Of a DNA stretch of 64,000 nt, positions 9,480 through 54,457 are shown one piece after another. This DNA is from Gracilaria domingensis. Lineage: Eukaryota > Rhodophyta > Florideophyceae > Gracilariales > Gracilariaceae. How positions within the stretch are numbered: the stretch's first letter is position 1; each line of letters begins with the position of its first letter. Location: assembly GCA_022539475.1 (NCBI GenBank), contig VCMS01000041.1, positions 241,097 through 305,096 of the forward strand. The letters are read 5' to 3'. A model generated the notes under the pieces. The model searched no databases, was not told the DNA's origin, and saw only the letters and a list, made by a program, of their open reading frames with translations. The translations under genes and the position numbers were made by a program.

Positions 9480-10119
9480 ATCATTCAGGCAACTACTGAC
9501 CTACACAGCTGTTGCCCTCGGGCTTATTTCCGTCTTCGGGCTATTGTTTTTCCCATCTTTACCTGTCGTCTGTGTTCTGCAAAGTGGAATATAGTCTGTT
9601 CGCTTTGGAAACTAAGCTAGTTTTGGGGCTATTTGGGGCGCGCGAGGGGGTGGCAGAGGCTGCCACTCAAAAACTTAAGAAATTTTGGAATATTAAATTC
9701 TATTTCGCGCAGTTTAGTTCTTGGGTCCCCTAGTTTTTGTAGAGGTTCTACTTCGCCGCACCACCCCATTCACTCTTTTCGCGACCCTCTCTCAAAACTG
9801 CACTCGTGCTAGTTTGCGTTTCCATTTTCTCCCATGTTGCAATGCCAATCGCAACTGATCCCACCTCAATCATCCCATCACTTCTTCCCACTCCACACCA
9901 CCCCTGCTATTTACCCATTTCTCGCCCATTACGCGTTCGCATCCTCTCTCTCCGTCTCCGCAAACGTCATTTTGTAGAAGTCAGGTGGACAACTCTCCCC
10001 CTTCTCGTATACCCGCCTCGCCTCAAAACGGCTTCAAATCCCTCCCATCCTTCTCTCCTCCTGTCCCCTCAGAATCCTCTTCGCAGTCCGCGCTACCTCC
10101 GCCGCACTCCTAAACCCAG
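9480..10119. other. Intergenic, pyrimidine-rich on the plus strand
   Basis: No convincing gene. The plus-strand frame from 9806 to 10459 is stop-poor because the minus-strand coiled-coil gene is purine-rich, and its Ser/Pro/Leu-rich translation has no recognisable feature. Confidence 0.35.
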
Positions 10120-10962
10120 TCACCACCGGAGCTCCGACTCCCTCCCGCGCACCTCCTCCACCACCTTCTTCATCTCCTTACGCTTCTTCTTCAGACGGCT
10201 CTTCCCATCCCCAACCCCACCACTCTTTGTCTTCGGTGTCACAGGGGACCCTTTCTGCACCGCCACCCTTCCCACCCTTCCCATCTCCGTCTTTCCGTCC
10301 ACACCTCCTTTCACCGTCTCCTCTTCCACCAATCTTTGCCTCTTGCCCAGCTCCTTCACCTCCTTCTCCAGCACGTCCAACCTCTCGTTCAGAACCCTAT
10401 TCTCCTCCCGCAACTCTCCAACCTCCCTTCCCGCACACTCCACTATCCCATACACATGATTTCTCATCTCCACTCCCAATACCGACAACGAATTCCGCAG
10501 GCTCGAAATCGCCTCAACCGAAACACCACTACCACCCCCACTCAGCACCACACCGCCCATTTCCGTTACAATCTCCACAATTCCATCGTCCAGTTGCTCC
10601 TTCATCACCAACCCCAACATCCCCACCCTCGCCTTCATCTCCCCCACAAACCGCATCTCCCTGTCACCCTCTCCGCCCCCACTCTCTATCTGGTCTCCAA
10701 TCTCTAAATGACTCAGATGCACCGCCCCCCTTCTCTCCATTGCGACCCCCTCCACCTCCAATTCTACACCCTTCTCCACCTCATCACCATCCCCTCTCCT
10801 CGCCTCACACTTCTTTCCTTCATCGGCCACTTCCTTCTTCTGCGACATCCGACCAGCCGTCGTAATCACGTCTTCTTCCCGCTTTGGTGACGTCGTCGGC
10901 GGTACCTCCTTCCCCTCCAACAGCGCCAAGAGCTCCTCATCCTTCACGTATCCGTTCGACAT
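10120..10962 (-). CDS. Hypothetical Glu/Lys-rich coiled-coil protein
   Basis: Start chosen at the ATG at 10962 (MSNGYVKDEELL); the frame is open further upstream but without clear protein character. About 280 residues. An acidic disordered N-terminal half (EE, KK, GDGDEVEKG) is followed by a hydrophobic-heptad segment (SLRNSLSVLGVEMRN) and a clear coiled coil (ELREENRVLNERLDVLEKE), then a basic tail with KKKRKEMKK that could be a nuclear localisation signal. No family recognised. It may be a host gene or an accessory protein of a mobile element; GC-rich third positions resemble the epimerase neighbour more than the AT-rich remnants to the left. Confidence 0.5.
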   Translation of the reverse strand: MSNGYVKDEELLALLEGKEVPPTTSPKREEDVITTAGRMSQKKEVADEGKKCEARRGDGDEVEKGVELEVEGVAMERRGAVHLSHLEIGDQIESGGGEGDREMRFVGEMKARVGMLGLVMKEQLDDGIVEIVTEMGGVVLSGGGSGVSVEAISSLRNSLSVLGVEMRNHVYGIVECAGREVGELREENRVLNERLDVLEKEVKELGKRQRLVEEETVKGGVDGKTEMGRVGRVAVQKGSPVTPKTKSGGVGDGKSRLKKKRKEMKKVVEEVRGRESELRW

Positions 10963-11247
10963 CTTCAGAAGAAGAAGTAGTAGTTGGATCGAAGTTTCCG
11001 CTGCGATACAGTGCAATCGAGCTAAAATGTGCTGTCCACCCCCACTGTCCAACCATACGGGCTATATCCAGCACCATGATTGTCCCTGTTTCCCTCATCC
11101 CATTTCCCGCCAAAACATCTACTGCACACCTCTGCACCTTCCACTATTTAAGCACCACCCCTCTGTCCCCTCTTTCGCGCTCACATAGTCCCCACCCACC
11201 TCGCCTCGACCGGCGATGTTTTTCTCTTCCACCATAACCTCACTCGA

Positions 11248-11578
11248 TGGTTATAGCAAAACAGGAACATATTGCCAGTGGAGGCAAGCTAGGGACTAGT
11301 GATTGTACTTAGAGTAGCTCACCCTCTGTCTCGATTGGGGGCATCTTCTTCTTCCGTCACATCCTGTGTAGGTTGTGACAAAAAAAGAATATGTCACCAC
11401 TCGACACCGGATGGGTAACAATGATAGCACGTAGAGTAGTTCATCCTCCCTCTCAGCGTCCACTGGCGATATAATGACGTTCTCTCACATCCTTTCCCGG
11501 TTGTGATACAAGAGAAATACATCTCCAATGAGATGGAGAATATAGTCGTGATAACACGTAAAGGTAGCAATGTGATAA
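11248..11578. repeat. Three degenerate tandem copies of a 125-bp unit
   Basis: Units begin near 11248 (GTTATAGCAAAACAGGAACAT), 11372 (GTTGTGACAAAAAAAGAATAT) and 11500 (GTTGTGATACAAGAGAAATAC) and share later blocks such as GTAGAGTAG.TCA.CCTC and TCACATCCT. The array lies in the 3' flank of the epimerase gene, so it may fall within its 3' UTR or terminator region. Confidence 0.5.
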
Positions 11579-11595
11579 ACAATAAATCTATGCTA

Positions 11596-12309
11596 CTATC
11601 TCTGACCAACCTTTCGAAAACCAGCTATGACATGAGCTGGGTTACTCGAGCCAAAGATGGCAGATCCTGCAACTGAAATGTTTGCACCGGCCTTCACTAC
11701 TCCTTTCACAGTACTCAGTCCAATACCCCCATCCACCTGTATCCCTATTCTTGGGTACAACTCCCTTGCATGTCGCACCTTATCAAGAACACCCTCCATA
11801 AACGCCTGTTCTCCAAACCCTGGCTCCACCGTCATCAACAAAAACATGTCTACAACTCCTTCCTTCATGAGTGCTTCTACGACCTTTATAGACGTATTCG
11901 GGCGCAAAGAAACTCCAACCTGCATTCCCATCCTTTTAATTCGGTTACATAATTCCTTCAACACCACGTTCTCCTCCTCAGTTGGTACCTCGCACTTTTC
12001 TAGTCCCTTAGCCACACTCTCGATATGAAATGTGACTCCGTCTGCGCCTGCTTCTGCAAGGTCTTTTATCCAGCGCCCAGGATCTGATACCATCAGATGA
12101 CAGTCCAAAAATAACTTCGTATGCCTCCGCAACGCTTTCGCAACAGGCGGTCCAACAGTAAGGTTCGCCACAAAATGACCATCCATTACATCTATATGCA
12201 GCCACTCCGCTCCAGCCTCTTCCATTGCACTCGCTTCATCTGAAAGGAGAGCAAAGTCTGAAGCCAAAATTGATGGCGCTATAATTAAACGAGAATCCAT
12301 ACTGAACAT
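11596..12309 (-). CDS. rpe: Ribulose-phosphate 3-epimerase
   Basis: Interconverts D-ribulose 5-phosphate and D-xylulose 5-phosphate in the pentose phosphate pathway and Calvin cycle. The 237-residue protein is a complete TIM barrel: IIAPSILASDF near the start (catalytic Ser), WLHIDVMDGHF (metal-binding His and catalytic Asp), LDCHLMV (metal His), MTVEPGFGEQAF (phosphate region) and IQVDGGI (second catalytic Asp), ending with VAGSAIFGS. Start is set at the ATG at 12309 (or 12300 three codons later), because a TATA box sits about 50 bp upstream; the frame stays open across that box but has no ATG there. No transit peptide is evident, so a cytosolic form is likely. No intron and no lesion. Confidence 0.96.
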   Translation of the reverse strand: MFSMDSRLIIAPSILASDFALLSDEASAMEEAGAEWLHIDVMDGHFVANLTVGPPVAKALRRHTKLFLDCHLMVSDPGRWIKDLAEAGADGVTFHIESVAKGLEKCEVPTEEENVVLKELCNRIKRMGMQVGVSLRPNTSIKVVEALMKEGVVDMFLLMTVEPGFGEQAFMEGVLDKVRHARELYPRIGIQVDGGIGLSTVKGVVKAGANISVAGSAIFGSSNPAHVIAGFRKVGQR

Positions 12310-12355
12310 CGATAACTTCAGTAACGCCAAACCCGTCCTTCCCAGACACACCCCC

Positions 12356-12363
12356 CTTTTATA
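12356..12363 (-). promoter_or_regulatory. TATA box of the epimerase gene
   Basis: TATAAAAG on the minus strand, about 47 bp before the chosen ATG at 12309. A start site about 30 bp downstream would leave a 15-25 nt leader. Spacing fits a RNA polymerase II core promoter and supports the chosen start. Confidence 0.6.
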
Positions 12364-12436
12364 CCTCAATAAAAAAGAAGATTATGGCAATCCGAGTGAA
12401 GCTATAGAACCCGTTTACGTCATTTATGAAGCCAAA

Positions 12437-12775
12437 ATGGCTCCTTTCATCCTGTATTCAAGCTCCCCGTATCTCGTACTTTACAACTACTTTACAACTC
12501 AGGTCTGGCGCTTGCACTTTCTCGTCGTCCCCAGAAATCGACCACCAGTTTTCGGAGTGTACATCTTCACAGCTTCCCTTTCATTGTCTCATAGTCCCAA
12601 AGCCGCAGCAATTGTACCCATTCGAACATCAAGTAAAGCACGCGACCTTACAACCCACCTGAGCTCCTCATTATCCTCCGGCTTCTCCACCCTACACCAA
12701 CATGTCGACATCACTCTCCCCTCAAATGGTCCATCGCTACCATCCTTCTATCCTTCATCATCGTTGATTATTTGA
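12437..12775 (+). CDS. Small hypothetical protein divergent from the epimerase
   Basis: A 112-codon frame with its own ATG, about 75 bp from the epimerase TATA box and divergent from it. It contains a hydrophobic core (GVYIFTASLSLSHS) and a Ser-rich tail. It overlaps the last 28 bases of the opposing ParB-like gene. No family recognised. It may be a small host gene that shares the promoter region, or chance. Confidence 0.3.
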   Translation: MAPFILYSSSPYLVLYNYFTTQVWRLHFLVVPRNRPPVFGVYIFTASLSLSHSPKAAAIVPIRTSSKARDLTTHLSSSLSSGFSTLHQHVDITLPSNGPSLPSFYPSSSLII

Positions 12776-15700
12776 ACAAACGATTTCTGTTCCTCCCCTT
12801 TCCGTATATCCGGCATCGCTCCATACTCATTCTCGAAGAAGTCCACCAACTTCCCCGACACATCTCCGCACTCCCGAACTGCTTCCAACACCTCCCATTT
12901 AGGGACACCATTATCCGTCGCAAAGCCATCAAACACGTAATATTTATTCTGCCTTAGCTCAGCTTGCATTCGGGCGAAGAATATTTGCCCAAATTCGTCA
13001 TGCTCCTTCGCAGCAACCCACAGCACCTCTTCATCATCCATACCTGTCGGCCGAGTACGAGGATACTGCATACCAAATGTCTCCGCCCGTAGGCGATGTT
13101 CAGCCCTTGCAGCGTGCCAAAAGACAAGATGGTGTACATCTCTGAGATTCGAGACACTTAGCAGCTCCGACCTATGTCCCTTCGGCAAGTGAATGAATCT
13201 GAACCAGGGGTCCTTGTGCTCAATTACGTTCTTCCCTTGCCATTCCTGCGGTCTCAGCCTGACATACCCGCACCATGATGGGTTCGGTGGGCCATCATAT
13301 GGGTCTCCTCGAACAAGTCCGTGCTCCTCAGGTTCCGGAAGAGCTTTAGGTAACTCGTCATCAAATGACCCCCCACCTGTCTCTTGCTGATCGTCTGGCG
13401 CAGCATCTTTCTCGACGGTGACAACCCGTGGAAATGTCACAGCAAGAAGCTCTTCGTCATCCACAAATGCAGAACTGCCTGCGTTATCTGCATTCGCTCC
13501 CTCTTCCAATGCCACGAACTGAACCGTCATCGACCTTCCTCTCAGCACATGTTCATTTAGTTGAGACATCAGGTCATCCGGTGTCATGCTGTTCAGAGTA
13601 GATCTCATATGTTGTGTGAAAGTCTTTCTCCGTTTCTTCCTCGGCGGAGCCCGCTGTTCTTCTTCAGAGCTATGCAGAACTTCTATGGCACCTCGATTTC
13701 GGCCGTGCTCAATTTCCCTATAATTCACCTGCGCCCGTTCTCGTGCACTTCTTCGCGGCTCCCCTTCTTCACTGGCAGATGTTGCAGCAGCAGCAGCGGG
13801 AGTACTCCTCTTCGTCACGGACTGCTTCACTGGTGCGGGGGGCGGAATTACCTTGAGCATCGTCCGCAATCGATTCTGAACGGAAGTCGTGGCAGTTCTA
13901 ATTGAGTTCGTCCTGCTCCGAACACGCGGCAATGTGTTGAAGTTCACAACTTGTCCCAAAAGGAACTGATACACAGCTGCGTTGTTGTCTGGGTCTTGAA
14001 CGTCATCTCCATTCGATGGAGTAGAAAGACTGACTTCGCGTTGCAGGAACACTTCCATGGACTCTTTCTCGTTTGGTTCATTCCTCACTGCTCGAGCCGC
14101 GCGGAACAGAGACACTGCTCTATCATAAAAGAAAACTCGAACCTCCTCAAAGCTTTTCCATTGCTTTGTCTTCGTCGACTTGCCCTTCAATAGAAACATC
14201 TGAAGACAATCAAGAATGAAGGAAAACTCCTCGGCATCCAAAACATATAGCGGATTATGGGACAGATGTGTGAGACCTATGTAGCTCACACTCTCACATA
14301 TATCCTCGAAATGGGCCAGCATTCCCTCACGAGACATGAGTTGCAGGGCGACATTGGCATATCTCAGATACTGACGCTCTTGCACAGTCCCAATCAGTTG
14401 GCTCTCCTTCAACACTTCTGTCACTTCTGCAGGATCCACGTCTGCCGGCGTCACCCCCTCAACATCTTCAATTAGAATGGCGACCACACTAACTATAGAG
14501 TGTATCTTGTCTGCAAACATCATCCTTCGCGTGGTACTCGTGGACTCATTGAGGTACGAAGCAACACATAAGAATTTCTTCATCCTAATGGGCCTCCCAT
14601 CTCTTCGTATCAGCAGATTGCAACGCCAAGAATTGGCTAATCGCTTCCACTTCGGTGCACCAGTTGCTGCCAAATATTGTATAGCTTTCAGACGATGCAA
14701 ACCATCTACATTGAAGCACTTCTTCGTTAGGCGTCCCTTGTCAGTATCCCTCTCTCCCGTAGTTCTCGTAGTAGCATCTTGTAAAGCCACTACTGGAGAA
14801 CCCATCGACTGCAATATCCCCCGTTCCTCCATACTCTTCACAAGGGCTTCAACGTGGCGTTTACTTACTCCACGGAGTAAATTGGGCGAAGTGTCCACCA
14901 GAGTGATGTCAACAGTAACAACAACTATCCGGTAGTGATTGAGGTTCACCTTTGGTACCTTCTGACGAATTCGTCTGTACGTCTTGCTCCGAATAGGTGT
15001 CCCTTGTGTTCCAGACCGCTCGCCAGAAACACTTGAACGTGCCATTCTTGCGGACAGAAGCACAACGTCATCGTCTTGCTGCTTCGCAGTTTCTGGTGCA
15101 GTTTGGGGTACAGATGGACCAGCTCCTTGTGCGGATGGCGCATCCGCGTCTGGAAGGGGACCTTTTATGATCTCATCTTCCTCTTCTTGCACAGCCGTCC
15201 CGTGCTGAACCGTCTGTTTCGACGCAGAAGTTCCCCTTGTGTCGACGGTCTGATTCATCGCAGGAGATGCCCTTTTCGACGCAGTGGGCTTCGTAGCGGA
15301 GGTAGACTTTGTTTGACCTGCCGCTTCGTAGCTGGGGATGATCTCGTCTGCATAGACCGCTTCGTAACAGACGACGGACCTGCCCGCGGAGGTGCTACTG
15401 ATGCGCTACCTCTCGGTGTTGATGAACTTCGAATTGGCTCCGTGCGGCTTGTCGGCGTCATCACCTCACTCATAGCGCTCACCGTTCGTCGCTTGGACGC
15501 TGGAATGCTGGCTGCCACCGGTTCCATCATTTTCTCATCCCAAGGAGCGGTCGTCCGGAGATCCTGGATGTATTGTGGAAGATCCAGGCCCTCCGCCCGG
15601 TAAGGGTAGAACGTCTGACCGCTTCGACTGATAAGAATATTATGAACGACCACAAGACCTTGGTCCAATTGCTTCCCGCTCAACTCGCGGCGTAGAACAC

Positions 15701-15860
15701 TTCCAATTCCATGCAACAACGCTTCCCCGACTATCACCTTTCCTTCATTCTCAATACCCATCTGCAGAGAAACCCGCATTCCACCTTGCAATGATCGAGT
15801 GCTCCGCAGAGTGCGAGGACACACGCTTTGCGTACGCTTTCGAACACGAGTTGGCTTCAT
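12748..15860 (-). CDS. ParB/sulfiredoxin-fold domain protein, interrupted by one frame change
   Basis: Two minus-strand frames form one protein of about 1,035 residues. The first begins at an ATG at 15860 and runs about 200 codons to a TGA at 15255; the second is open from about 15360 and has an ATG at 15258 overlapping that TGA. A repeated Thr-Lys motif coded by GCTACGAAG switches frame between copies 35 nt apart, so a 1-nt loss in this Ser/Thr/Lys linker is likely. The second part (836 residues) holds a ParB-like region at about 105-230: VVVTVD, V..LVKSMEERGILQ, then CFNVDGLHRLKAIQYL, matching the (D/V)GxHRxxA signature of ParB/Srx nucleotidyltransferase-fold proteins. A basic Ser-rich linker and a conserved-looking C-terminal region (WCGYVRL, KYYVFDGF) follow. 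It diverges from the DNA methyltransferase gene. ParB fold is reasonably sure; role (DNA binding, nuclease or CTPase) is not. Confidence 0.6.
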
Positions 15861-16287
15861 GTTGAACAGCTATTGCAGTGACAGGTTTATATCAACAATA
15901 CGCTCGCTCTGGACGATACAAGAACGGAGGCGAGCCTTTAAATGGCGACTTACGCTGGGCACCCCCGCTTTCGGCAGCTCCTCCCAGCGCACTGCCAGTC
16001 TCGTCCGTGTCCTGCCCGTGGCCGCACGCACGCTGATTGTACGCTTTAGAGTCGTGGAGTTCGCGCAATGATGACTCACGCGAGCAATGGTCGCGCTCTC
16101 TAATCGTGCTCTTCAAATGCTTTGCATAGTAGTCAAGAGTACACTCATTCACTTTCATGTACAGCCTACTCCCGCCAATACACGTAGACAGCGGCGCCAA
16201 CGTACCGGCGGCCGGGTGTAGCGAACTCACTGCGGGGCGGCGTGTTTTGGGAGGTCCCGGGAAGGCGCCGGAATGTGGCCAGAACAT

Positions 16288-16372
16288 GCCCGCGGGCGGG
16301 GGGGGGGGGGGGGGGGGGTCGGTCGTGTTAGGGTAGGTACCCTAACACGACCGGACCCCCCCGCCCGCGGGC
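16288..16372. repeat. GC-rich palindrome 1 with 21-G run
   Basis: Arms start GCCCGCGGGC and end at the centre GTTAGGGTA-GG-TACCCTAAC. The left arm has an expanded G tract (16298-16318) and TCGGTCGTG, the right arm CACGACCGGA then C7. It forms a hairpin of nearly 40 bp, and the G run could form a quadruplex. Confidence 0.85.
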
Positions 16373-16410
16373 ATAAAATCACACATTTTTAAAAAATTCG
16401 GGCAAAACGT

Positions 16411-16492
16411 GCCCGCGGGCGGGGGGGTCCGGTCGTGTTAGGGTAGGTACCCTAACACGACCGGAACCCCCCGCCCGCGAGCATAACATCGC
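16411..16492. repeat. GC-rich palindrome 2
   Basis: Second copy of the palindrome, offset about 120 bp from the first. 82 bp with arms of about 40 bp pairing from GCCCGCGGGC to the same centre with a 2-nt loop; two mismatches near the outer end. The flanking AT-rich spacer is also duplicated, so the whole 120-bp unit is a tandem repeat, and a third partial GCGGGC block lies at 16525. Confidence 0.85.
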
Positions 16493-16689
16493 ACATTTTT
16501 CAAAAAATCGCCCAAAACGTGCCACCGCGGGCGAACATACAGGATGTGCCACAGAGCAGTACTAGTGGATCGGTGGAGACCTTGAGTGATGAATGCGATA
16601 CAAACCTCCGAATACTGGCTAAGGAATTTTTGACAGACCTCGAAACCATATGCACCCACAATAGCCTCTATAGCTTACGGGCTGATCAG

Positions 16690-18144
16690 ATGAAGAACTG
16701 GATAGAGTTTTTGGAGATACGGATGGATACCGTATCTGGTTCTGACTCCGGTGAGTTGCCTGCTCGATTTCAGAAGTTTTCGGAGTTGCTATGGAAACCG
16801 ATACAGGATATGCGTCATGCGGCAGGGTTCCATGTCGGCATTCACGCGAAACCTGATATTGAACTGACGAAAACCCCTAAAATTTCCGGTAATGCCGAAC
16901 CTTCTTCGACCAAGTATGCCCCACCCCCACCTTGTCGAGAGTATATGGACCTCGTGAGCTCCGATAGCGACGAATTCGAGAAGCCGGTGAATCTTGCGGA
17001 GCATGAATCTCGGGTTGCCGGTTACAACATTCAAAAGACTGGTATTGAGGCGCCCATGAAGGGGATATCCAGTCTCCTTCGAATGAATATGGACAAGGTG
17101 TGGAAGGGGATGAGAAAGTCACACTTTGTAGCGTACAACTGTGACATGAAGGACCTGAGGCACAAACACAAAACATTTGTGAATCAAAGTGAGATTTTAT
17201 GGGGTGAGGTACAGCTTGTCCTAACAGACCCTCCCTTTAACACTCGAAGGAAGAGGAACAAACGGAATAGTGCTCACGATGTCTTCAGTGAGGATGAAAT
17301 GATCAGTACGGCTGACTTAATAAGTTTCGCGCTTCGGTCAGGTGGGCACTTCATTATATTCTGTGCCATGGCACAGTTTCATGTTTGGCACAGGATACTT
17401 TCGGAAACGGCGAGTACGAAAGATGAAGCTGGAAGCGAAGGTAAGCCAGAACTCATGCCTTCGTTTAAAGTGGATGCGAATCCACTGGTGTTCATCCGGG
17501 ATCGCAGTAATGTTGGAGGGAATCCACGGAAGTTTGGGATACAGCCCGTAACGGAGTACGCCGTTCATGGGGTGAAGCGTGGATTGCGACCATCCGAGGA
17601 AGCCAGTCTTACTCTATTTGAGGAGAAAAATTTCATTCCTTCTACTTTCCCGGCTAACAGGAATGTAATTGACCGGGTGCCAAAACCGAGAGCGGGGAAG
17701 TGGTTGACATGGAAGGTAAATGAGCCACGTAGTTCAGTACCAAGTGGGCAGTACATAAGACCGGAGCAGAAGTCCAGGGAGTTGATGAAACAGTTGATAT
17801 GTCGCTTCACAAGACCGGGTGATCATGTCATGGACATGTTCGCGAGAACTTTTTCTACGGGTATGGCGTGCCTATCGCTGACAAAGCATAGGAAGTTCTT
17901 GGGGTGCGAGAAGAATAGGCCATGTTTCAGCCATGCGAAGCACCATATAACGACTCTTATGGCCGAAGTTCTTCGCGGGGGGAAGAATGACATCCTGGTT
18001 GAACAGGAGGTGGTGAATGCTGCTTCAACGACTTATGAACGGGTTCCACATCGGGACCGAGGTCGGCTTGAATGGGAGGCTCCATTTGGATACCCCCAGT
18101 ACCAAGTGATGCCTGCACATATTACTAAGTTCCTAGGAAGATAA
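16690..18144 (+). CDS. N6-adenine/N4-cytosine-type DNA methyltransferase (DPPF motif)
   Basis: Would transfer a methyl group from S-adenosylmethionine to an exocyclic amine of A or C in DNA. The first in-frame ATG is at 16690; the frame is open back to 16519. Motif order is that of beta-class enzymes (PF01555-like): the catalytic block LVLTDPPFNT lies at about residues 176-185, and the SAM-binding motif I near the C-terminus (HVMDMFARTFSTGMACL at about 379, then FLGCEKN). A SISFALRSGGHFIIF-like strand follows the DPPF block as expected. Motif I reads FART where related enzymes as I recall have FAGT, possibly a damaging Gly to Arg change. The gene ends in TAA, after which the same frame continues into the SET gene without another stop. 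It faces the ParB-like gene; ParB-methylase pairs are common in phages and plasmids. Specificity is unknown. Confidence 0.75.
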   Translation: MKNWIEFLEIRMDTVSGSDSGELPARFQKFSELLWKPIQDMRHAAGFHVGIHAKPDIELTKTPKISGNAEPSSTKYAPPPPCREYMDLVSSDSDEFEKPVNLAEHESRVAGYNIQKTGIEAPMKGISSLLRMNMDKVWKGMRKSHFVAYNCDMKDLRHKHKTFVNQSEILWGEVQLVLTDPPFNTRRKRNKRNSAHDVFSEDEMISTADLISFALRSGGHFIIFCAMAQFHVWHRILSETASTKDEAGSEGKPELMPSFKVDANPLVFIRDRSNVGGNPRKFGIQPVTEYAVHGVKRGLRPSEEASLTLFEEKNFIPSTFPANRNVIDRVPKPRAGKWLTWKVNEPRSSVPSGQYIRPEQKSRELMKQLICRFTRPGDHVMDMFARTFSTGMACLSLTKHRKFLGCEKNRPCFSHAKHHITTLMAEVLRGGKNDILVEQEVVNAASTTYERVPHRDRGRLEWEAPFGYPQYQVMPAHITKFLGR

Positions 18145-18228
18145 TGGAAGGACTGGGACTTTGTCGACAAGTGTGGACAGCATACTGTAGATCTTTGGGA
18201 GGAGAAGTACCGAGGAGCTCCGAATCTA

Positions 18229-18834
18229 ATGGATATGCATATGCTGTTGACTGTTGAAGCCAATCGCTATCGCTTACATGTAGCATCTTCTAAGATTCGA
18301 CATCCCCGTGCTGGTATGGGGGTGTTCACGGAACATAAGATATTGGCTGGGGAAACTATCTGTCATTTTTATGGAACTTTGGTATACACGGATCTGACGA
18401 ATCGGAAGGAAAGACACTTAACGTATGGAAGTGGCTGTCTCGGAGCAACTCCAGTGCGGCACAAGTTGTTTCCTATGATGGTCACTGTGACTGGTACGGA
18501 CGTTCTGCACCTGAGGAACAGACCAGGACAGGCTCAGGATAGAAAGGAGAGCGAAGTGTACATTGTCCCGGCGCCTTTTTGTATCGGGGGCTACATTAAC
18601 GACGCCGGATATCATGCCGGGGATCCCGATTTATCGCAGCCCCGGTCAAACAGGACTCGAAGTGCCAATGTGCAGATGGTGGAAGCGAAGTCCGTGATAC
18701 AGTTTAAGTCCGACCTTTCTAACTATGCTCTACTTCGTTGTAGAGCAGTAAGAGATATTGAGAGGGGCGAAGAGTTGTATGTCAACTACGGACAGCAGTA
18801 CGCCTGGGACTGGGCTCTGACATTGGAGCAATAG
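18229..18834 (+). CDS. SET-domain protein methyltransferase
   Basis: A compact 201-residue SET domain, expected to methylate lysine on histones or other proteins. Visible blocks: GMGVFTEHKILAGETICHFYG (residues about 29-50; the usual GxGvfA...I..G..i..Y), GGYINDAGYHAGD near 121-133 followed by SANVQM (the RFINxxxxxN-v SAM and pseudoknot part, with an insertion), and AVRDIERGEELYVNYG at about 171-186 (the I..GEEL..YG motif with catalytic Tyr). Pre-SET and post-SET cysteines are absent, as in short viral and algal SET proteins. It is in the same frame as the upstream methyltransferase; the 84 bases between them are open, so the two may have been one protein. Confidence 0.8.
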   Translation: MDMHMLLTVEANRYRLHVASSKIRHPRAGMGVFTEHKILAGETICHFYGTLVYTDLTNRKERHLTYGSGCLGATPVRHKLFPMMVTVTGTDVLHLRNRPGQAQDRKESEVYIVPAPFCIGGYINDAGYHAGDPDLSQPRSNRTRSANVQMVEAKSVIQFKSDLSNYALLRCRAVRDIERGEELYVNYGQQYAWDWALTLEQ

Positions 18835-19082
18835 ATGAGTTCAGTACCGAATAGAAAGTAAATATGCTTGTGAATGTTGCAGCTGCCTGCAATACGCGTT
18901 GTACATGTACACTGGAGCTCTTCATCTATTTGTAACGGCGATATTTGCGACCCATTGGGCACCTCAAATTCCTAAAAAGCAGGAACTGCGGAGTCTCCCG
19001 TAATATCTGAACCATGCACCCCCCCCCCACCCCCTCCCCCCCCCTAACAATTTCGTTTCATTACCCCGTTTATCTCCACAAC

Positions 19083-20309
19083 ATGGGTATAACGCCGAGA
19101 AAGCGAAATCGTACGCAGCGGAACAAGAGTGGACAGAAGAAGAGAAGAGCATCGGATGATACGAATCAGGCTACAAGCACCGCACTTCCTCAACGGAAGT
19201 CGTCCTCGACGAAGGAGAGAGTCAGTGGGCGTTCTTCTACAGGACCCTCTCGCATATCTCGTAGCGGACTGTCTCCCGGGATTGCGTCAAGAATTCGTGG
19301 ATCAGCGAACGATGTCGTGCCGTCAACTGCCGATAATGCAAATCGTGCATCTGTCTCTGCTCCTCAAGAAGATGAGGTAACTCGGCCCAGCGGGTCAGGA
19401 CAGGAGGGCATGACAACTGGAACTGAAGAGGTTCGTATGACACCAAAACCTTCATGTCCCCGGCTGATATCGAAGACCGGAGCTACTGGGGCGCTGGTTA
19501 CGCCGCCCAGTGGATCTGGACAACAAGGGACAATGACGAGAAGTCGTGAGAGCCCTAGTATACTAAGATCGTCACGTCCCTCCCTGTCTTCTAGAACTGG
19601 GGCCGCTATGAATCGTATTATGCCTCGCAATGGGTCCGGACAAGGGAGAAAGACTATAAGAAATCGAGAGACAACTGATAGACGAGTTACTCCTCGACCT
19701 TCCTCTCTTTCCAGAACGGGGGCCGTTGCAGCTCGTACGAGGCCCAATTCATCTGATATACCATGCCATGGAGGAGGACAGACACGGGAGTTGGAGCTCG
19801 GAGCCGTGCCAAGGGTGGAGACAGAACGCCTGCAGCCTCTCATGTCTAAGGGTATGGCACATGATGATAGTTCCGATAACGAAATAACACCGAATCCTGC
19901 GGCATTACCGGGGTCTGTCACGGAAGAGGCTAGGGAAATACCGGAAGATATCCAAACTGGTGTGAATTCAACCTCTATGAACAGACGTGATCTTTTAAAT
20001 GAACTGAATTGCTTGAAAGAAAAGGTTAAGACGCTACAAGAGGACTTGATGGTTTGGGGTATTCTAGTGAAGGTCGCCCAAGAGCAGAGTACGGCTTTGA
20101 AAAAGAGGCTTCAAGAGAAGGATCTAGTCATTGAAAAGCTAAGGGGGGCACTGAAACAGGAGGGAGATAGGAGTACACGTGCTGGTGAACCTGGGCAGAC
20201 AGGTCGAAAGAAGCATAAAATTGAGGTGTGCGACGAGTTTCGAGGGGTTGCTCGAGCAGTGTATCACAACATGCTGACGTGGGCAAGGAGAGAAACAAGT
20301 GAGCTATAG
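19083..20309 (+). CDS. Basic, disordered protein with coiled coil (element-associated)
   Basis: Starts at ATG 19083 (MGITPRKRNRTQRNKSGQKK); an ATG at 19014 in the same frame lies in a poly-C tract and is less likely. The N-terminal 270 residues are Ser/Thr/Arg/Gly-rich and carry a degenerate repeat of about 40-45 residues (RTGA..., GSGQ... recurring near 100, 145, 190, 225). A strong coiled coil follows at about 300-365 (LNELNCLKEKVKTLQEDL, ALKKRLQEKDLVIEKL). It ends at a TAG at 20307, beyond which the same frame is open to 20846. No family recognised. The repeat plus coiled-coil design suggests a DNA or chromatin scaffold. Confidence 0.5.
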   Translation: MGITPRKRNRTQRNKSGQKKRRASDDTNQATSTALPQRKSSSTKERVSGRSSTGPSRISRSGLSPGIASRIRGSANDVVPSTADNANRASVSAPQEDEVTRPSGSGQEGMTTGTEEVRMTPKPSCPRLISKTGATGALVTPPSGSGQQGTMTRSRESPSILRSSRPSLSSRTGAAMNRIMPRNGSGQGRKTIRNRETTDRRVTPRPSSLSRTGAVAARTRPNSSDIPCHGGGQTRELELGAVPRVETERLQPLMSKGMAHDDSSDNEITPNPAALPGSVTEEAREIPEDIQTGVNSTSMNRRDLLNELNCLKEKVKTLQEDLMVWGILVKVAQEQSTALKKRLQEKDLVIEKLRGALKQEGDRSTRAGEPGQTGRKKHKIEVCDEFRGVARAVYHNMLTWARRETSEL

Positions 20310-20357
20310 CTCGAAGGTGAGTCGCTCAACCGAAATTGGGGTAACCGTGCCGAGAAG

Positions 20358-20846
20358 GTGGAAGACGCAACTGAGAGTGGGGAAGGGCTTATTGAGCCGG
20401 AGGAAGGTGGTTCATACATGGTTCCTAAAAACCCTGTGGAGCTCTTGGGCAGTTTTGGCATGTTCACACCGTCGGTAGAGGGGGGGCCAGATGCTTTGCT
20501 CAAGAAAATGGTTGAAAGCGAGTTGAAGGAGTTGAGCTGGGAAGGTATTAGAAAAGCATCTCTTACCGACAGGTGTATACTGGAACTTTGTGCAGATATG
20601 TGCCTTAGGCAGAGAGTGCGGCAGACCATGAGTGACGTCGTGGGCGTTCGGAAGAGAAATACGAGGGATAAACTATTTGTGCTCCTTGGGTACGATCTGA
20701 TTTGGAGAAGAACAAAGCTGGTAGAAGAGAATGCTGACGAACTCACAATGCAGTTGAAGGAAGCGCAGGAGAACATACTGCGTCTTGACGAAAAAATGGT
20801 GTACCGAACACTTCATGGTGGAGAAAAGCCCCATTTGTTCGTCTAA
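20358..20846 (+). CDS. In-frame continuation of the coiled-coil gene
   Basis: About 160 codons in the same frame as the preceding gene, separated only by one TAG, with no other stop in the 48 intervening bases. Contains a helical segment (LLKKMVESELKELSWEGI, LELCADMCLRQRV) and a short coiled coil (ENADELTMQLKEAQENIL). Probably a downstream part of one longer protein broken by a nonsense change, or read through. The frame ends at a TAA near 20844 while coding character moves to another frame. Confidence 0.4.
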   Translation: MEDATESGEGLIEPEEGGSYMVPKNPVELLGSFGMFTPSVEGGPDALLKKMVESELKELSWEGIRKASLTDRCILELCADMCLRQRVRQTMSDVVGVRKRNTRDKLFVLLGYDLIWRRTKLVEENADELTMQLKEAQENILRLDEKMVYRTLHGGEKPHLFV

Positions 20847-20875
20847 AGTACTCCAATGCAGACAATGTCGAGGAT

Positions 20876-21481
20876 ATGCCGACGGAAGATCAAGACTTGT
20901 TCTTCCGAAACCGTGTCGGGGTACAAGTACTGAAGGAGTTTATTGGGTATGATGTGGAAGACAAGGATACGGACACCTTTTTAGATGGCACAATACTGTT
21001 GCTTGCACGTTTGGACGCTTGGGTGTTGACGGTTGTGAGCCTTCTAAGTACGGATGTGTCAAAAGGTGGCCAGAGACAGAAACTGTTTACAAAGAAGTTT
21101 GCCCAACTGCGACCTCTGTGTTTAAAGAATGTTCCGGGGGATGTTAGGCAACGTGTCTTGAGGACCAATTCCAGCGAGTTTCATCATTTTGGAACGACAA
21201 CGGAAGATTGGACTAAGGTTCTTGGTAATGACATGAGAGAGGCTACATTTGGATATTGAATGCCGTCGAACGGAAGACTTTACCTCACTGTGAAAGAACA
21301 ATTTTTTATTGACAGTGTGAGCCGAAGATTGGGTTCTATTAGCGATTGTTTCGTTGGTGAATGCGAGGAAGGGAATATGAAGTTCAGGGAAATGGACATG
21401 AACGATTTCGGAAGTAGCACAGGATCACAAGAAAAGGCACCACAAGGTGAACATGTAGAGGATGGAGCCCTTAATGTTTAA
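20876..21481 (+). CDS. Distal part of the coiled-coil gene, split by an in-frame TGA
   Basis: After a frame change near 20830 the coding character continues in this frame, which is open upstream of 20876 to about 20825. An in-frame TGA at 21257 is followed at once by an ATG and 73 more codons to a TAA at 21479. The segment includes helical hydrophobic stretches (DGTILLLARLDAWVLTVVS) and an acidic tail. Together 19083-21481 look like one former protein of about 800 residues with TAG, a shift and TGA. No domain recognised. Confidence 0.35.
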
Positions 21482-21666
21482 GGCTATACAAGATCAACGT
21501 GCTCAGTTGGTCCTTCATCTGAATCATGATAGAATCGATTGATGTAGAATCGGTGTTGAGACCATTGAAGTGGAGGACAAAAAGGTGGAGCAGGGTAGTT
21601 TGATCGAAAAACATGGACAGTTCCCTGTAGTGCAGAAGCCGGAACCATCCCGTACCAAGGAGTTAA

Positions 21667-24600
21667 CTATACGATAGTCTCCGCTTTGGAATTACGAGGG
21701 AACGGAAGAGTGTGGTTTTTTTCATCGTTTGTAGCCCACCGTAAAGATATGCATTTCAATATGTGGTCGATGTTTGTTGCGGGGGGTAAAACCTCGAAAT
21801 ACCGGACGAATGCCACCTCTGGTGCGGTAAGTGCAGAATCAAGGAGAGATATTCGAATCAGAGCGACTACCTGGGCAACCCAAGTCTCTGAATCTTCTCC
21901 ACTTACCCATACAGTGGAAAACATTGGCTTTCTACTGGGACCAAATGCTGGAGAAGCGAAGACTCGTTGGATGATGGGGTATTTGGGTCGTCCCAGCTTA
22001 AGTGCCTTAGAAGACGAATCGAAGTGTTCAAGAGTCGGAACGAAACCGCCTTTCACGAGGGCCGAATTCACCAGAGTTATCCTTGTCTTTTCTGGGAAGT
22101 ATGTAATAGAGTGCTCATCCAGTGTTTCTTTCACGAGACTGAGGAAAGGAGGAAGAGCCTGTTCACCAATTTGGTCAAGAATCGACCTTGTGTCCGTACT
22201 TGAGAACATCTCTCTAACAGCAGTCCATGTTTTTGAACTCGACATACTTGAAACACGATGTTGAAGAGCTCGTAAAGTGAAAGAACGCCATCTCATTGCA
22301 AATCGAGGAAGCTGTGTGGAAGTTCCTGGTAAACCTGGGTTACGCTGGTAAGGAGTATTGCCATTCCATTGCTTTCTAACATGTCCGTGCTCAATGGAGC
22401 GAATAGTCTCCTCCACAGCCGTTGCTGTTCTTCTGGACGTCTTTTTGTAGAGTCTCTTAAATAGCAGGTGTGCATGTTCGTATATGCCTGCGTCGTAGTA
22501 CTTGATACTTCCCAGACGGTGAATATCGTCCACGAGATGATCGAGAAGATGAAACTTCAGAGTTCCCAGTCTGGAGGGATGAAAATCCGCCAGAGTCTTT
22601 GTTGCGGAACGCTTGAAGGCTTCAATCTCCGAACTAAGACACAGGAGACAGCTTTCAGTCCAATACGGGTCACGATTGTATCTGAATAAGGTCGAAAGCA
22701 AGTCCGAGTACTGAGAGAAAACGGTTGTGATTGGGGCAACGTCCTGTTCTCCACAGCATATGTCAAAGAATGCTCCTATGAAGGGGAAGACCATGTCAAG
22801 TGCTTTGTAGTTTTTGGCCTCCAGCATTCCACGGAGACCGTCTTTCGTGAAGATACCATTCAAAGATTTGCCTTTGTCCTTCGTGGAGAAATCGATATGT
22901 AAACCTTTGGCAGGAGAATCGCGTTCTATGGCAGCTAGAATTGCGTTTGCATGGTTGAAGAGTTGGGTGCGTATCGTTCGAAATGAACGGGATGCAGATG
23001 TTCCTATTGTGGTGCACAAGGTGTCTGACTGCAGTCTCTCGATTGTGGCCGTTTTTATCATCTTCGAGATGCCGAGATGCAAGTTGTGTAATGGTTCGAA
23101 TGAGAACGGACTGTATGGAGACAATCCCCGGATCATTCCAAGGCTTACGGAAGTTTCGAGGAACGAAGGAATGAGAGATATGGAATTTGAACGCATCAGA
23201 GTATCCGCTTGAGATCTCCTCTCCCTCGCACGACGTGGACGTCTTTCCGCCTCTTCTTTTTGTGCATGTTGCAAGATAGCTGTGTATGTCTTTCGGATGC
23301 TTTTCGTGTGCTTTTGAGAACGTCCGTTGAATGAGGTGGGAATAGGACTGCATAAAGATGAGCGAGGGGCTTTGCATCTATGACACGGGCTTTCCGTTTT
23401 GGTCCCATGAAGAATGGACAGAATGTCCTTAGCCTTAGGAATATCCGCACAATAACTTGCAAGCAGAGAATGGCACACTCGACTTAGTTTGTCTTCGCCG
23501 ATGAACTGAAAACCTTTCTGCGTGAGATTTAGAATGGGCTCCAGGACTTGACGAAGAGGTTCTTCAAGGATTTGCATCCTGGACTCGCGTAGAGACTTGC
23601 TAGAAACGAATGGCATTGCGTCTGCTTCAGATGCGGAAACCTCGATCAGTGTAGTAGGGAAGTATGCCACTACTGTGAGGTCATCACGGATGCACTTACG
23701 GCGTAGCTCGTCGGAGAAGTTGAGAAATATGAGGTGAAGAGGATAGGCGGTAACCGATGTTTGCTTTAGAGTTGTTGAAGACTTATCGGTGTATACCTGC
23801 AGAAGACCTACGAAAGATTCACTGTAACTTATTTCTTGGGAGTACCACACTATTCTACTATCCAAAGAGCCCATGACCATTTCCTTAAGTTTTGAGGTGG
23901 CGTCTCTTGCGAGAGAGCCGGACATGGGGTGAGATATTTTCGTGGAGTGGGTCTGAGGTATAGGGTGAAAGAATGTGTTTTCGTTCTTATCCAACTGGAG
24001 CTGTTTCAGAAATGTCTGAACGGGGTCTCTCGTGTAGAGGGTGGCGCTGAACTTACATCCTTCTGGCGAGACAGTTCTTCGATTGAAACCGTCCTTTGAG
24101 TCGTATCGTTCGAAAATGGCGTTCTCCAGTTCTGTACAGCGCTTGGAACTTGTTATGGTCTCGTTGAATCGCTTTTGCGGGAATCGCGAGTCCCGAAGTA
24201 GCCCAATTAGCTCGTCTGCCTCACGATGACCAAGGTTGGAAGCTACTGAAGCAAGACAAACCGTGAGATAATCCATATGCAAATCACCGAGGGCCTCCTC
24301 AGAAGGCACTGGGCGGGAACTGCTTCCGTGATCTCGCTCTAATGACGCGGGACCCGGGGAAGGAGAAACACAATGCGAAGTGTCCGGAATGGGAGGGGCG
24401 CACGGAGTGGGGTCAACGATGTCCTCGGACACCGGAGGCTCGGGAAGGCGACAAGGGGCAGTGACCGTTTCGGAAGATGCGGCCGCGGGCGCGGAAAGCT
24501 TGAGACGCTTGCTTCTCCGAATGGGCCGCCTATTGTCGTCTTCCAGCGCTGCTTTCGGACGAAACGGGCAATGGTTGACATGCTGTTGAAGAGATAAGAC

Positions 24601-24753
24601 TCCTCGGCGAGTAGCGAAGGGGCACCCACGCTTCTTATGTGTACAGTAGTAGACCATGGGAAGAAGAAATGAACGAGAAACGACGACAAAGACTGCAAGG
24701 GAAGGTCGTCCAAAGGGAGCAGGAGGTCGAGCGACAGTCAAGATCGATGTCAT
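21667..24753 (-). CDS. CACTA-like transposase of the Plavaka type
   Basis: A single intact 1,028-codon frame from ATG 24753 (a second ATG at 24657 starts just before the zinc finger). An N-terminal C2H2-like finger (C37, C44, H58, H61/C62) is followed by a disordered Pro/Ser-rich linker. The core shows LLQVYTDKSSTTLK with Asp near 320 followed by YPLHLIFLNFSDELRRKC, then SPCHRCKAP near 456, then PFSFEPLHNLHLGISKM near 545-560 and a late EHAHLLFKRLYKKTSRR block. This order (Asp-rich first block, CxxC, DxLHxxxLGI-like, late H.x.K) is that of Plavaka/CACTA-type DDE transposases. The second acidic residue appears as Glu (FEPLH) where Asp is usual. It is convergent with the cassette ending at 21481, 185 bp away, so it may mobilise that cassette. 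Confidence 0.7.
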   Translation of the reverse strand: MTSILTVARPPAPFGRPSLAVFVVVSRSFLLPMVYYCTHKKRGCPFATRRGVLSLQQHVNHCPFRPKAALEDDNRRPIRRSKRLKLSAPAAASSETVTAPCRLPEPPVSEDIVDPTPCAPPIPDTSHCVSPSPGPASLERDHGSSSRPVPSEEALGDLHMDYLTVCLASVASNLGHREADELIGLLRDSRFPQKRFNETITSSKRCTELENAIFERYDSKDGFNRRTVSPEGCKFSATLYTRDPVQTFLKQLQLDKNENTFFHPIPQTHSTKISHPMSGSLARDATSKLKEMVMGSLDSRIVWYSQEISYSESFVGLLQVYTDKSSTTLKQTSVTAYPLHLIFLNFSDELRRKCIRDDLTVVAYFPTTLIEVSASEADAMPFVSSKSLRESRMQILEEPLRQVLEPILNLTQKGFQFIGEDKLSRVCHSLLASYCADIPKAKDILSILHGTKTESPCHRCKAPRSSLCSPIPTSFNGRSQKHTKSIRKTYTAILQHAQKEEAERRPRRARERRSQADTLMRSNSISLIPSFLETSVSLGMIRGLSPYSPFSFEPLHNLHLGISKMIKTATIERLQSDTLCTTIGTSASRSFRTIRTQLFNHANAILAAIERDSPAKGLHIDFSTKDKGKSLNGIFTKDGLRGMLEAKNYKALDMVFPFIGAFFDICCGEQDVAPITTVFSQYSDLLSTLFRYNRDPYWTESCLLCLSSEIEAFKRSATKTLADFHPSRLGTLKFHLLDHLVDDIHRLGSIKYYDAGIYEHAHLLFKRLYKKTSRRTATAVEETIRSIEHGHVRKQWNGNTPYQRNPGLPGTSTQLPRFAMRWRSFTLRALQHRVSSMSSSKTWTAVREMFSSTDTRSILDQIGEQALPPFLSLVKETLDEHSITYFPEKTRITLVNSALVKGGFVPTLEHFDSSSKALKLGRPKYPIIQRVFASPAFGPSRKPMFSTVWVSGEDSETWVAQVVALIRISLLDSALTAPEVAFVRYFEVLPPATNIDHILKCISLRWATNDEKNHTLPFPRNSKAETIV

Positions 24754-25018
24754 GCTGAGAACGGAGAATACATTTTGAGTTTAAATCACGTGCTTTCGTT
24801 CAAAAAGGAACGTAGGTACACGTCGACCTTAACACAAGGGTGTACTTCTCGTATTATCTACGACTGGTTATAAACCTGTGGTTTTCCAACGTGGTACGCT
24901 GTACACCTGTCCAATCTCGCACAGAAAAATAAATCTCTTCCCTCCGCCGCCGCCGCGCCTCCGACGTCCGACCTTCCGTTACCGTCGTGATGCGTGCCAT
25001 CCACATCCTCGCGTTCTA
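24754..25018. promoter_or_regulatory. 5' flank of the CACTA-like transposase
   Basis: About 265 bp upstream of the transposase ATG. A weak AT-rich element (GGTTATAAACC at 24867-24877, itself a short palindrome containing TATAAA on both strands) may act as a TATA region. No other structure seen before the hairpin array. Confidence 0.3.
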
Positions 25019-25118
25019 CTCCGCTCCCTCCTTCTTTTTTCCTCCCTCTACTTTATGGAGGCTCCTTAAAGTAGAGGGCGGAAAAAAGTAGGACGGAGTC
25101 ATCCGTATCTCACGGATG
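25019..25118. repeat. Hairpin 1 (and small hairpin) upstream of the transposase
   Basis: CTCCG at 25019 pairs with CGGAG at 25098; the arms share CCCTCTACTTTA with TAAAGTAGAGGG and TTTTTTCC with GGAAAAAA, giving an imperfect stem of about 35 bp. A small stem CATCCGT-ATCT-CACGGATG follows at 25100-25118. Confidence 0.75.
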
Positions 25119-25348
25119 TATTCCGTGCAGTCTATTCGTACGTTCTTCCATATCCTTCCACGTATCTTTGCTCTAAACTAACCAATCCTCACCGCGTTTC
25201 TTCGCGCCCAGCGACATGTAAACGGCAGGAAATAAGCTAATCACCTTCAACGTCTTCTATTTGTTCAAGATATAGAACGAGGTGAAGGGTGAAAACGGGA
25301 ACCCGGTATCCCAAAGCGATGACTGTAAGTACGCGAACAATGGTTCAT

Positions 25349-25435
25349 TTCGTTGCGCCATAGGCTCTAGCTTTTCCTCTTGCGCTACTTTTCAAAAGTA
25401 GCGCAAGACGCGAGAAGCTAGAGCCTATTGCGAAA
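25349..25435. repeat. Hairpin 2, about 38-bp arms
   Basis: Arms GGCTCTAGCTTTTC...CTTGCGCTACTTTT and AAAAGTAGCGCAAG...GAAGCTAGAGCC, with TTGCGCCATA pairing with TATTGCGAA outside. Only a few mismatches. It resembles a foldback element or a subterminal hairpin. Confidence 0.8.
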
Positions 25436-25848
25436 CAAACCAAGTTGGTTTCTTGGCGATCTTGGATCTCTGAGTGTTCAGGATAGACAATTCTGGTTTG
25501 GTTGGGACATAGGCTGCTCTCTCGTTTATCGCATCTTGGAATATTTTTGCTGCATGGGCATTCTCAGTGTTATTGCTTGTGGGTTTTCGCTTCGAGACCT
25601 TTCGCGGTTTATGATGAATGGATTGCTGGTAATCTAACCGATCCCTTTCCTTCTTCTTCTTCCTTTTGCGAGTTACTAGGTCCCTCGAATTTTCTAGCGC
25701 AACGTTTCTGTTTTGCTTTGTCAATTGTACGTTCCATCGCATTTCAAATGTATCCAACGGAGCATTGATTAACTTATGGATACTTTCTGCTTGCGTATAC
25801 AGGTAAATGACTTTTGATGCGTACGTAGCTCACGAGTTGCAGGTGCAG

Positions 25849-26014
25849 GTTCCTCAAGTACGGAACCATGCATCTGGGCATGGTTCCCTACATGAGGAAC
25901 GGAGAGGATGAGGCGCTTCGCGCCTCATCCTCTCGGAGTGCGTATTTGTTCTACCGATATCGCACTTTGGTGCAGGTGCCCTCTGCGGCATCTGCCGCAG
26001 ATTGCGCCTACACC
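25849..26014. repeat. Three consecutive hairpins
   Basis: Stem a: GTTCCTCAAGTACGGAACCATGC with GCATGGTTCCCTACATGAGGAAC (25849-25900). Stem b: GAGAGGATGAGGCGC-TTC-GCGCCTCATCCTCTC, perfect, 25902-25934. Stem c: GGTGCAGGTGCC...TCTGCGGCA-TC-TGCCGCAGA...GCGCCTACACC (25969-26014). They are adjacent, with different sequences. Confidence 0.85.
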
Positions 26015-26378
26015 CGCTTCATCATGGGGAAATGGTACATGTAATATAGCGAAGTAGTGGTTAGAAAAAGCGGTCGATAGAAGAATAGATACGAATAAAA
26101 CGCTATGGTTTCATAATGAACATCATCTGTACTAGCAACAGTATTCCATGCGTTGCAGGGTATCATTCCGCAGAAGGTATCGTGTAATGTGCACCTTAAT
26201 GGAAACTGAACCTAGACTTCGCGAAATACCGTTCAGGTAGCCCTCGACTAAAGAACTAGCACGAGTGGAAAACCCACCAGTATTTACTGCACAGCGATTC
26301 TGGACGACCCAAGCAATTATCTTCAAATTTTGAAATAATTGATCTTGATATTTTTTCAAAAAATTTACTGAACGACCC

Positions 26379-31485: not shown

Positions 31486-31640
31486 TGTCAGCCACGTGTA
31501 GTGCGCGCGGCACCACACGTGGCTGGGGAGCTCACTTAAGCCGCCGCCGTCGCTTCGGAGCGACGGCGACTGGAGGAAGACAACAGAAAAGCAAGAAGTA
31601 AAAAAAGGGTAGCTGGCCCTAGTTTGTTGTGCAGCTTTCA
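31486..31640 (+). repeat. 5' LTR
   Basis: 155 bp starting TGTCAGCC and ending CTTTCA. The first 85 bases fold into two strong stems: CAGCCACGTGT with ACACGTGGCTG, and GCCGTCGCTTCGGAGCGACGGC. Very short for a Gypsy LTR; no clear TATA box. Confidence 0.95.
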
Positions 31641-31658
31641 TGGTACTCTCGAGGAGGG
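31641..31658 (+). other. Primer-binding site
   Basis: TGGTACTCTCGAGGAGGG begins at the first base after the LTR. TGG is the complement of a tRNA CCA end, so a tRNA ending GAGAGTACCA is expected as primer. Which tRNA this is I cannot tell without a tRNA set. Confidence 0.6.
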
Positions 31659-31708
31659 CCGTTTCATCGTCATCTTCGTGCAGTTCAATTGATTCTTTTC
31701 ATTCTAGC

Positions 31709-54342: not shown

Positions 54343-54457
54343 GCCGCGGCGCAGCGCGCAAAAAAGCGCGCCGTTGCGCCAGCGAAAAAAAGCAAAACTG
54401 CACGCCGGGACGGCGCGCTGGCGCGTGCGCGCATCATGCGGCGCGCACGCCCGCCAC

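Follow-up and report, generated by a model that had tools for sequence, protein, structure and literature searches.

The DNA stretch analyzed here, 64,000 nucleotides of the red alga Gracilaria domingensis (contig VCMS01000041.1, positions 241,097 to 305,096; hereafter, the window), carries a cassette of genes encoding a ParB-like protein, a DNA amino-methyltransferase, a SET domain and a coiled-coil protein. This cassette occupies the central portion of a Plavaka-related DNA transposon that is up to ~23 kb long and present in hundreds of copies in the G. domingensis genome. The four genes named in a first-pass annotation of the window do exist in its sequence, and they travel together on a mobile element, namely, a repeated unit with inverted ends and a transposase; the cassette covers part of this element, which has about nine genes in all. 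The best explanation of this gene set, to which we give a probability of roughly 45%, is that the element marks itself and thereby keeps its chromatin permissive against host silencing.

The window copy of the transposon is damaged and occupies 16,866 bp (positions 9567–26432), as delimited by the left-end flanks and by the right end shared with other copies (copies and loci are referred to below by their C and L labels). It is bounded by the left terminal inverted repeat CGTCTGTGTTCTGCAAA (9567–9583, plus strand) and the right terminal inverted repeat CGTCTGTCTCTTGCAGA, given in the minus-strand reading (26416–26432). The repeat is imperfect, with 13 of 17 bases alike between the ends, which have the form CGTCTGT..ACAGACG. 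A search of the genome (78 Mb) that tolerated up to two mismatches found the left end 572 times and the right end 557 times, and the reversed control patterns gave no matches; the assembly searched comprises 77.9 Mb in 680 contigs. The right end at 26432 is indicated by the loss of similarity in all 39 other scored copies at query positions 981–995 (26430–26444 of the window), and the left end at 9567 by flanks that are unrelated among the window copy and two C257 copies. Copies share sequence beyond both sides of the interval originally reported for the cassette. Target duplications of 2 bp (AA, AA, TA, GG, GT, TT, AC, TA, and AT) were found in nine of the ten copies having both ends listed, C65 being the one without; they are absent in the window copy, C34, and C114 (0 of 3), i.e., 9 of 13 copies carry a duplication overall. 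Position 12503 was rejected as a candidate left end, being an internal deletion junction, and the locus L028 was rejected as a clean nested insertion, with no readable target site at its junction. A head-to-head pair of copies (L055 and L051), with identical left ends and 1.3 kb between them, was observed in C257.

The longest well-delimited copies (C34, C29, C23, and C5) measure 22.6–22.9 kb. Lengths were also obtained for 48 pairs of ends, formed from 98 left and 93 right ends out of the first 100 listed of each, with three right ends used twice. Their median is 13.5 kb; 12 pairs span at least 20 kb, and 11 fall within 10.0–10.8 kb, a narrow class that looks as if a single deletion derivative had been amplified.

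The element encodes a Plavaka-like transposase of 1028 amino acids (aa) (21667–24753, minus strand), which passes the curated cut-off of the Plavaka profile PF18759 in the Pfam scan (E = 2.7e-15) and shows the motif order VYTDKSS, YCADIP, CHRC, HLLDH, and IYEHAH, where D and E were chosen by eye. The termini correspond to neither the PlavakaA nor the PlavakaB ends (5′-TGT..ACA-3′ and 5′-CATCA..TGATG-3′), and the element is therefore called Plavaka-related and placed in neither lineage. Genome matches were scored for the transposase (45), SET (150), methylase (80), ParB (54), epimerase (148), and HAD hydrolase (114). The SET, methylase, and ParB sets hold the best-scored of 522, 734, and 967 matches, respectively, so that the copy numbers are lower bounds, and the scored sets lean toward copies resembling that of the window. 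There is good support for movement driven by the transposase and acting on the short inverted ends. The large size and the methylase and SET genes might also suit a degraded virus or provirus, and in Amoebidium, Plavaka giant repeats adjoin viral insertions (PMC11244446). A viral identity was nevertheless rejected as extremely improbable: IMG/VR profile scans gave no relative, no virion gene was recognized among the proteins scanned with Pfam, and the short inverted ends, 2-bp duplications, and transposase account for the mobility.

Two of the encoded proteins are fusions. In C164, C257, and C465, the methylase and SET domain are encoded together in a single uninterrupted frame (1,055 aa), which has ~300 residues ahead of the part kept in the window. 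In the window, the DNA amino-methyltransferase part lies at 16519–18144 and the SET domain at 18229–18834, both on the plus strand. Pfam analysis assigned the former to N6_N4_Mtase (PF01555; E = 3e-13 in the window and 3.9e-15 in an intact copy) and the latter to PF00856 (E = 2.7e-8 and 1.8e-7, respectively). The catalytic motif TDPPFN is located at 17224–17241 (plus strand), and DPPF precedes FAG (motif I) in C164, C257, and C465, which is the beta-class arrangement. The methylase model matches the fold of M1.HpyAVI (E = 1.3e-11), and both sequence and fold group the enzyme with bacterial adenine methylases (DpnA/M1.HpyAVI, CcrM); the rotifer N4-cytosine enzyme was matched too. The algal enzyme is predicted to act on adenine or on N4 of cytosine in DNA. 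The N4-cytosine methyltransferase of the rotifer Adineta vaga resembles it as a bacterial-type amino-methylase of the same fold in a eukaryote (PDB 8s9m–8s9o, Foldseek E = 6.4e-8). The rotifer gene is not known to be transposon cargo or to carry a SET fusion. The SET domain shows a weak PDB match with SETD8, an H4K20 enzyme (E = 0.004). Outside the methylase core, the structure predicted for the methylase-SET protein is poor (mean predicted local distance difference test score, pLDDT, 41.6).

Relatives of the methylase-SET protein, namely, P0001 (742 aa), P0003 (587 aa), and the fragment P0002 with parts of both domains, show 32–45% identity. P0001 and P0003 have the same domain order at 32–33% identity, which indicates that the fusion predates the Gracilaria family. 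An origin of the two domains in the element as separate genes was rejected, since intact copies have them fused, as do the distant relatives. The proposed combination of a ParB fold and a bacterial-type amino-methylase with SET holds, and the separate SET writer of the first-pass annotation gives way to one methylase-SET protein. A profile search for further methylase-SET proteins yielded one G. domingensis fragment only. In the phage search, the methylase matched 75 phage records, none with more than 60% identity, and no prokaryotic donor was found despite the likeness to bacterial and phage adenine methylases.

The window copy has suffered several lesions in this gene. At 16533/16534, sister copies reveal a deletion of ~1.1 kb that included the N-terminus, and the listed GTG start of the window methylase open reading frame (ORF) lies upstream of this junction and is not the true start. 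The FAGTF of C164, C257, and C465 is changed to FARTF in the motif I region MDMFARTF (17830–17853, plus strand), and an in-frame stop (18142–18144, plus strand) separates the methylase from SET. The window copy looks inactive for most of the enzyme kit. A second C465 copy is without the stretch holding motif I and has a shorter G-run ahead of SET.

The second fusion involves the ParB-fold protein (12748–15258, minus strand), which is ended early in the window by a TAG at 12748–12750 and extends to ~1,300 aa in sister copies. Its N-terminal part (MKPTRVRKR...) lies in another frame in the window (15255–15860, minus strand) and is in frame with ParB in L010, L024, and L027. The modelled N-terminal part of the protein matches the folds of Noc, ParB, and sulfiredoxin, with pLDDT mostly 50–87 at residues 1–370 and below 50 across most of the remaining residues. 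The motif VDGLHRL of the ParB/sulfiredoxin-like fold is located at 14689–14709 (minus strand), and DG.HRL is invariant in four of four sequences. No Pfam match was found for the ParB domain, PHROG ParB-like families matched weakly (E = 0.0085 and 0.018), and tblastn of phage records with the ParB protein gave no match at E up to 1. Hence, among the profiles that the first-pass annotation had suggested, PF01555 and PF00856 matched, whereas ParB was recognized by its fold instead.

In the last 300 residues of the protein, HxD, H, and R are invariant in all three whole-domain sequences, which are 36–39% identical. HxD..H..R is the iron and co-substrate signature of 2-oxoglutarate/Fe(II) dioxygenases, and the C-terminal domain is read as a putative enzyme of this kind. 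The window retains only a remnant of the dioxygenase-like domain past the stop codon (12503–12747, minus strand), and this loss is why the dioxygenase arm was invisible in the first-pass annotation. The relatives P0006–P0008 show 29–38% identity; P0007 and P0008 carry the full ParB-dioxygenase arrangement, and P0006 ends ahead of the distal H. Two G. domingensis proteins that also match ParB-dioxygenase, P0004 and P0005, are named ‘SasA cell-wall-anchored’ and ‘mediator subunit 15-like’; these names look like misnamings of transposon proteins.

An array of 32-bp palindromes lies between the ParB-dioxygenase and methylase-SET genes, which point away from it in opposite directions. In the window, the first of them, GGTCGTGTTAGGGTA-NN-TACCCTAACACGACC, is located at 16320–16353 and the second, 110 bp further, at 16430–16463. 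All four half-sites of the window are in the divergent intergenic region, with 0.08 expected. One to three palindromes were found in 31 of 38 ParB/methylase sister loci (L010–L028 and L030–L048, where L020 and L039 belong to a single copy), and the larger C164 stretch contains five. The seven palindrome-negative loci include L021 and L028 with a rearranged ParB gene, L036 at a contig end, and L016 with unread bases. No palindromes were found in the 11 loci from other element parts (L002–L008, L050, L052, L054, and L055). By analogy with parS, the palindromes are proposed as candidate binding sites of the ParB-fold protein; alternatively, they could be promoter or structural DNA. The palindrome stretch folds at z = −12.9, as any palindromes must. 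The palindromes contain TTAGGGT/ACCCTAA, like the telomere repeat, which is probably a coincidence.

When linkage was examined genome-wide, the cassette genes did not prove to be unlinked host genes: a SET match lies directly downstream in 57 of the 80 scored methylase matches (the SET list in this count comprised 77 of the 150 scored places). For the 54 scored ParB matches, a correctly placed methylase match was found in 16 and a SET match in 20. A transposase match is located downstream of 6 of the 80 methylase and 7 of the 77 SET matches, so that the best transposase and best methylase matches are mostly in separate copies or contig pieces.

The pooled ratio of nonsynonymous to synonymous polymorphism (pN/pS) was lowest in SET (0.23; 16 distinct sequences among 24 copies) and in the methylase core (0.26; 21 of 25). 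Higher values were obtained for the N-part of the methylase (0.46; 12 of 19), the ParB domain (0.45; 18 of 19), and the remainder of the window's ParB ORF (0.61; 19 of 19). The copies were picked by protein similarity, which lowers pN and all the ratios, and the equally chosen ParB set is the sole yardstick. In-frame stops occur in 4 of the 16 distinct SET copies, 1 of the 21 methylase cores, and 3 of the 18 ParB domains of these sets. The corresponding ratio of substitution rates (dN/dS) was 0.27–0.33 in five open methylase-SET copies and 0.66–0.67 in seven open ParB parts. By these ratios, the methylase and SET look constrained. If the element gains genes easily, its enzymes could now be passengers that do little for it, like its metabolic cargo; an epimerase and HAD hydrolases are also carried, and the methylase-SET frame is broken in many copies. 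This explanation appears improbable given that both fusions recur in other sources at 29–45% identity and that the methylase and SET pN/pS is low, with the above caveat on copy choice.

The self-marking proposal is based on domain chemistry. The ParB-fold protein would nucleate on the palindromes, like bacterial ParB on parS, and would spread across the element as a nucleotide-dependent clamp, while the dioxygenase end, positioned by the ParB fold, would oxidize a methyl mark on DNA or protein. The methylase-SET protein would methylate adenine (or N4 of cytosine) in DNA and lysine in nucleosomes, with the net outcome that the chromatin of the element would be open for transcription and transposition. 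Such a strategy has analogues in the TET/JBP enzymes carried by transposons and in the Vandal regulator (PMC12730594), and N6-methyladenine (6mA) is linked to permissive chromatin in several eukaryotes (PMC12695648). The most complete version, a self-addressed system in which a palindrome-loaded ParB-type clamp brings the dioxygenase, the bifunctional enzyme methylates DNA and nucleosomes, and the copies are thereby distinguished from host DNA and kept active, is possible but doubtful as a whole.

Several observations weigh against the self-marking proposal. The mechanism is weakest as regards the direction of its effect, and the marks written by SET could be repressive. For the dioxygenase-like domain, a Pfam search permitting E values as high as 10 gave no hit, and PDB profiles gave none that was meaningful; the structure model is unusable over this domain. 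Four open ParB-dioxygenase copies have a dN/dS of 0.79–0.80, i.e., weak selection, and the selection case for the dioxygenase end within the G. domingensis genome is weak. The methylase-SET fusion is broken in most scored SET copies: the stop-free 1,055-aa frame holds 9 of the 150 matches, and stop-free frames of at least 700 aa hold 20. Among the 45 scored transposase matches, eight have a listed SET or methylase match within 8 kb upstream, and the copies of 10.0–10.8 kb may be without the enzyme kit.

The uncertain sign of the marks leads to the opposite scheme, in which the methylase-SET protein would put repressive marks on the element's own copies, limiting copy number and damage, and the ParB-dioxygenase would remove them at transposition. 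SET enzymes are capable of repressive marks, to which the weak SETD8 match may be added; the family is very numerous, and the Amoebidium Plavaka giant repeats are hypermethylated, there with 5-methylcytosine (PMC11244446). Such self-restraint is considered unlikely, since published transposon-borne modifiers are mostly interpreted as counter-silencing in the available text of PMC12730594. It is also conceivable that the ParB-steered dioxygenase erases no mark and oxidizes thymine or methylcytosine into a new base, the methylase providing a parallel DNA mark. The joining of the dioxygenase to a ParB fold, a module that deals with DNA and nucleotides, would fit such hypermodification, as would the oxidation of thymine by JBP (PMC12730594). 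However, neither the Tet_JBP profile nor any other Pfam profile matched the domain, and hypermodification seems about as improbable as passenger cargo.

The transposon can be compared with several known systems. Fungal Plavaka elements with TET/JBP genes share the Plavaka-type transposase, 2-bp duplications, oxidizing-enzyme cargo (putative in the alga), and a proposed escape from silencing (PMC12730594). Their ends are TGT..ACA or CATCA..TGATG, whereas those of the algal element are CGTCTG..CAGACG; the algal dioxygenase-like domain has a ParB fold as its fusion partner and fits no TET/JBP profile, and the red algal element adds the methylase-SET protein and metabolic cargo. SET domains on DNA transposons are known from the HarbingerS and MuDR elements of Phytophthora (cited in PMC12730594); these belong to different transposase lineages, and a SET-DNA methylase fusion goes unmentioned in the introduction of that paper. 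The Amoebidium giant repeats are similar in being very large gene clusters adjoining a Plavaka transposase, and distant matches of their genes in dinoflagellates or red algae are reported (PMC11244446). Their genes are largely tyrosine recombinases, and the terms ParB, SET domain, and 6mA were not found in the available text of PMC11244446. In phages, a ParB fold and an N6_N4 methyltransferase also occur together, in many cases on mobile elements (PMC12704722), but as a single fused protein, whereas the algal element has two divergent proteins, each with another fusion partner; the word dioxygenase is absent from the available text of PMC12704722 on these fusions. The full-text literature searched, which included neither Repbase reports nor papers behind subscription such as the one on the G. 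domingensis genome, yielded no methylase-SET fusion, no ParB-dioxygenase fusion, and no such element, in agreement with the first-pass annotation, to which no described element with this exact gene set was known. Transposons carrying SET or TET/JBP enzymes singly are already known, and the two fusions may be new in themselves.

The gene order of about nine genes was assembled from several copies, none of which was read end to end. The first half of the fuller copies contains a coiled-coil ORF (minus strand), ribulose-phosphate 3-epimerase (minus), a Rossmann-like ORF (plus), a HAD-IIB hydrolase (plus), and a second HAD hydrolase (minus); these are followed by the ParB-dioxygenase (minus), the palindrome array, the methylase-SET gene (plus), a Ser-rich/coiled-coil gene (plus), and the transposase (minus). 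The Rossmann-like ORF has no family match, and its label is our own reading. In the window, a deletion junction at 12502/12503 marks the loss of ~4.4 kb of the sister copies (size summed from C257 and C164), which removed the Rossmann-like ORF, both HAD hydrolases, and most of the dioxygenase domain. The HAD ORF has no stops in 103 of its 114 scored matches. The coiled-coil ORF (310 aa; 10120–11052, minus strand; coiled coil assigned by eye) is inside the repeated unit and has Pfam matches solely above E = 0.1 and no family match. The Ser-rich/coiled-coil gene (19014–21259, plus strand) consists of three ORFs in the window (19014–20309, 20358–20846, and 20876–21259), with homologous ORFs in C257 and C465 and no Pfam family match.

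The epimerase (11596–12369, minus strand; PF00834, E = 4e-63; TIGR01163 above the cut-off) was considered as an adjoining host gene, which was rejected because it lies inside the repeated element. Of its 148 scored matches, 39 cover at least 230 residues with 82–100% identity, and nine of these are stop-free. A stop-free ORF at C17 shares 56% identity with it and is taken as the host's own gene; this level of identity points to an old capture. A recurrent shortened class was also observed, as many scored matches span residues 149–256 alone, with ~94% identity. Outside the element, the window contains a 1567-aa ORF (31640–36343, plus strand) that, in our own reading, resembles a Ty3/Gypsy retrotransposon polyprotein, and a sharp G+C peak of 72% at 54001–56000, against ~42–57% elsewhere in the window.

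From ~560 ends and the 13.5-kb median pair length, we roughly estimate that the family accounts for about one-tenth of the assembled G. domingensis genome. The metabolic genes that it carries, the epimerase among them, are a separate point of interest. Transposons with a single epigenetic enzyme are known; what is novel here is that palindromic sites and a ParB-fold/dioxygenase-like protein accompany a DNA methylase-SET protein. An active kit would mean that nature has coupled DNA methylation to histone methylation within one polypeptide and that a ParB-like system for targeting operates in the nucleus of a eukaryote; it would also let the idea of a transposon in charge of its own chromatin be tested directly.

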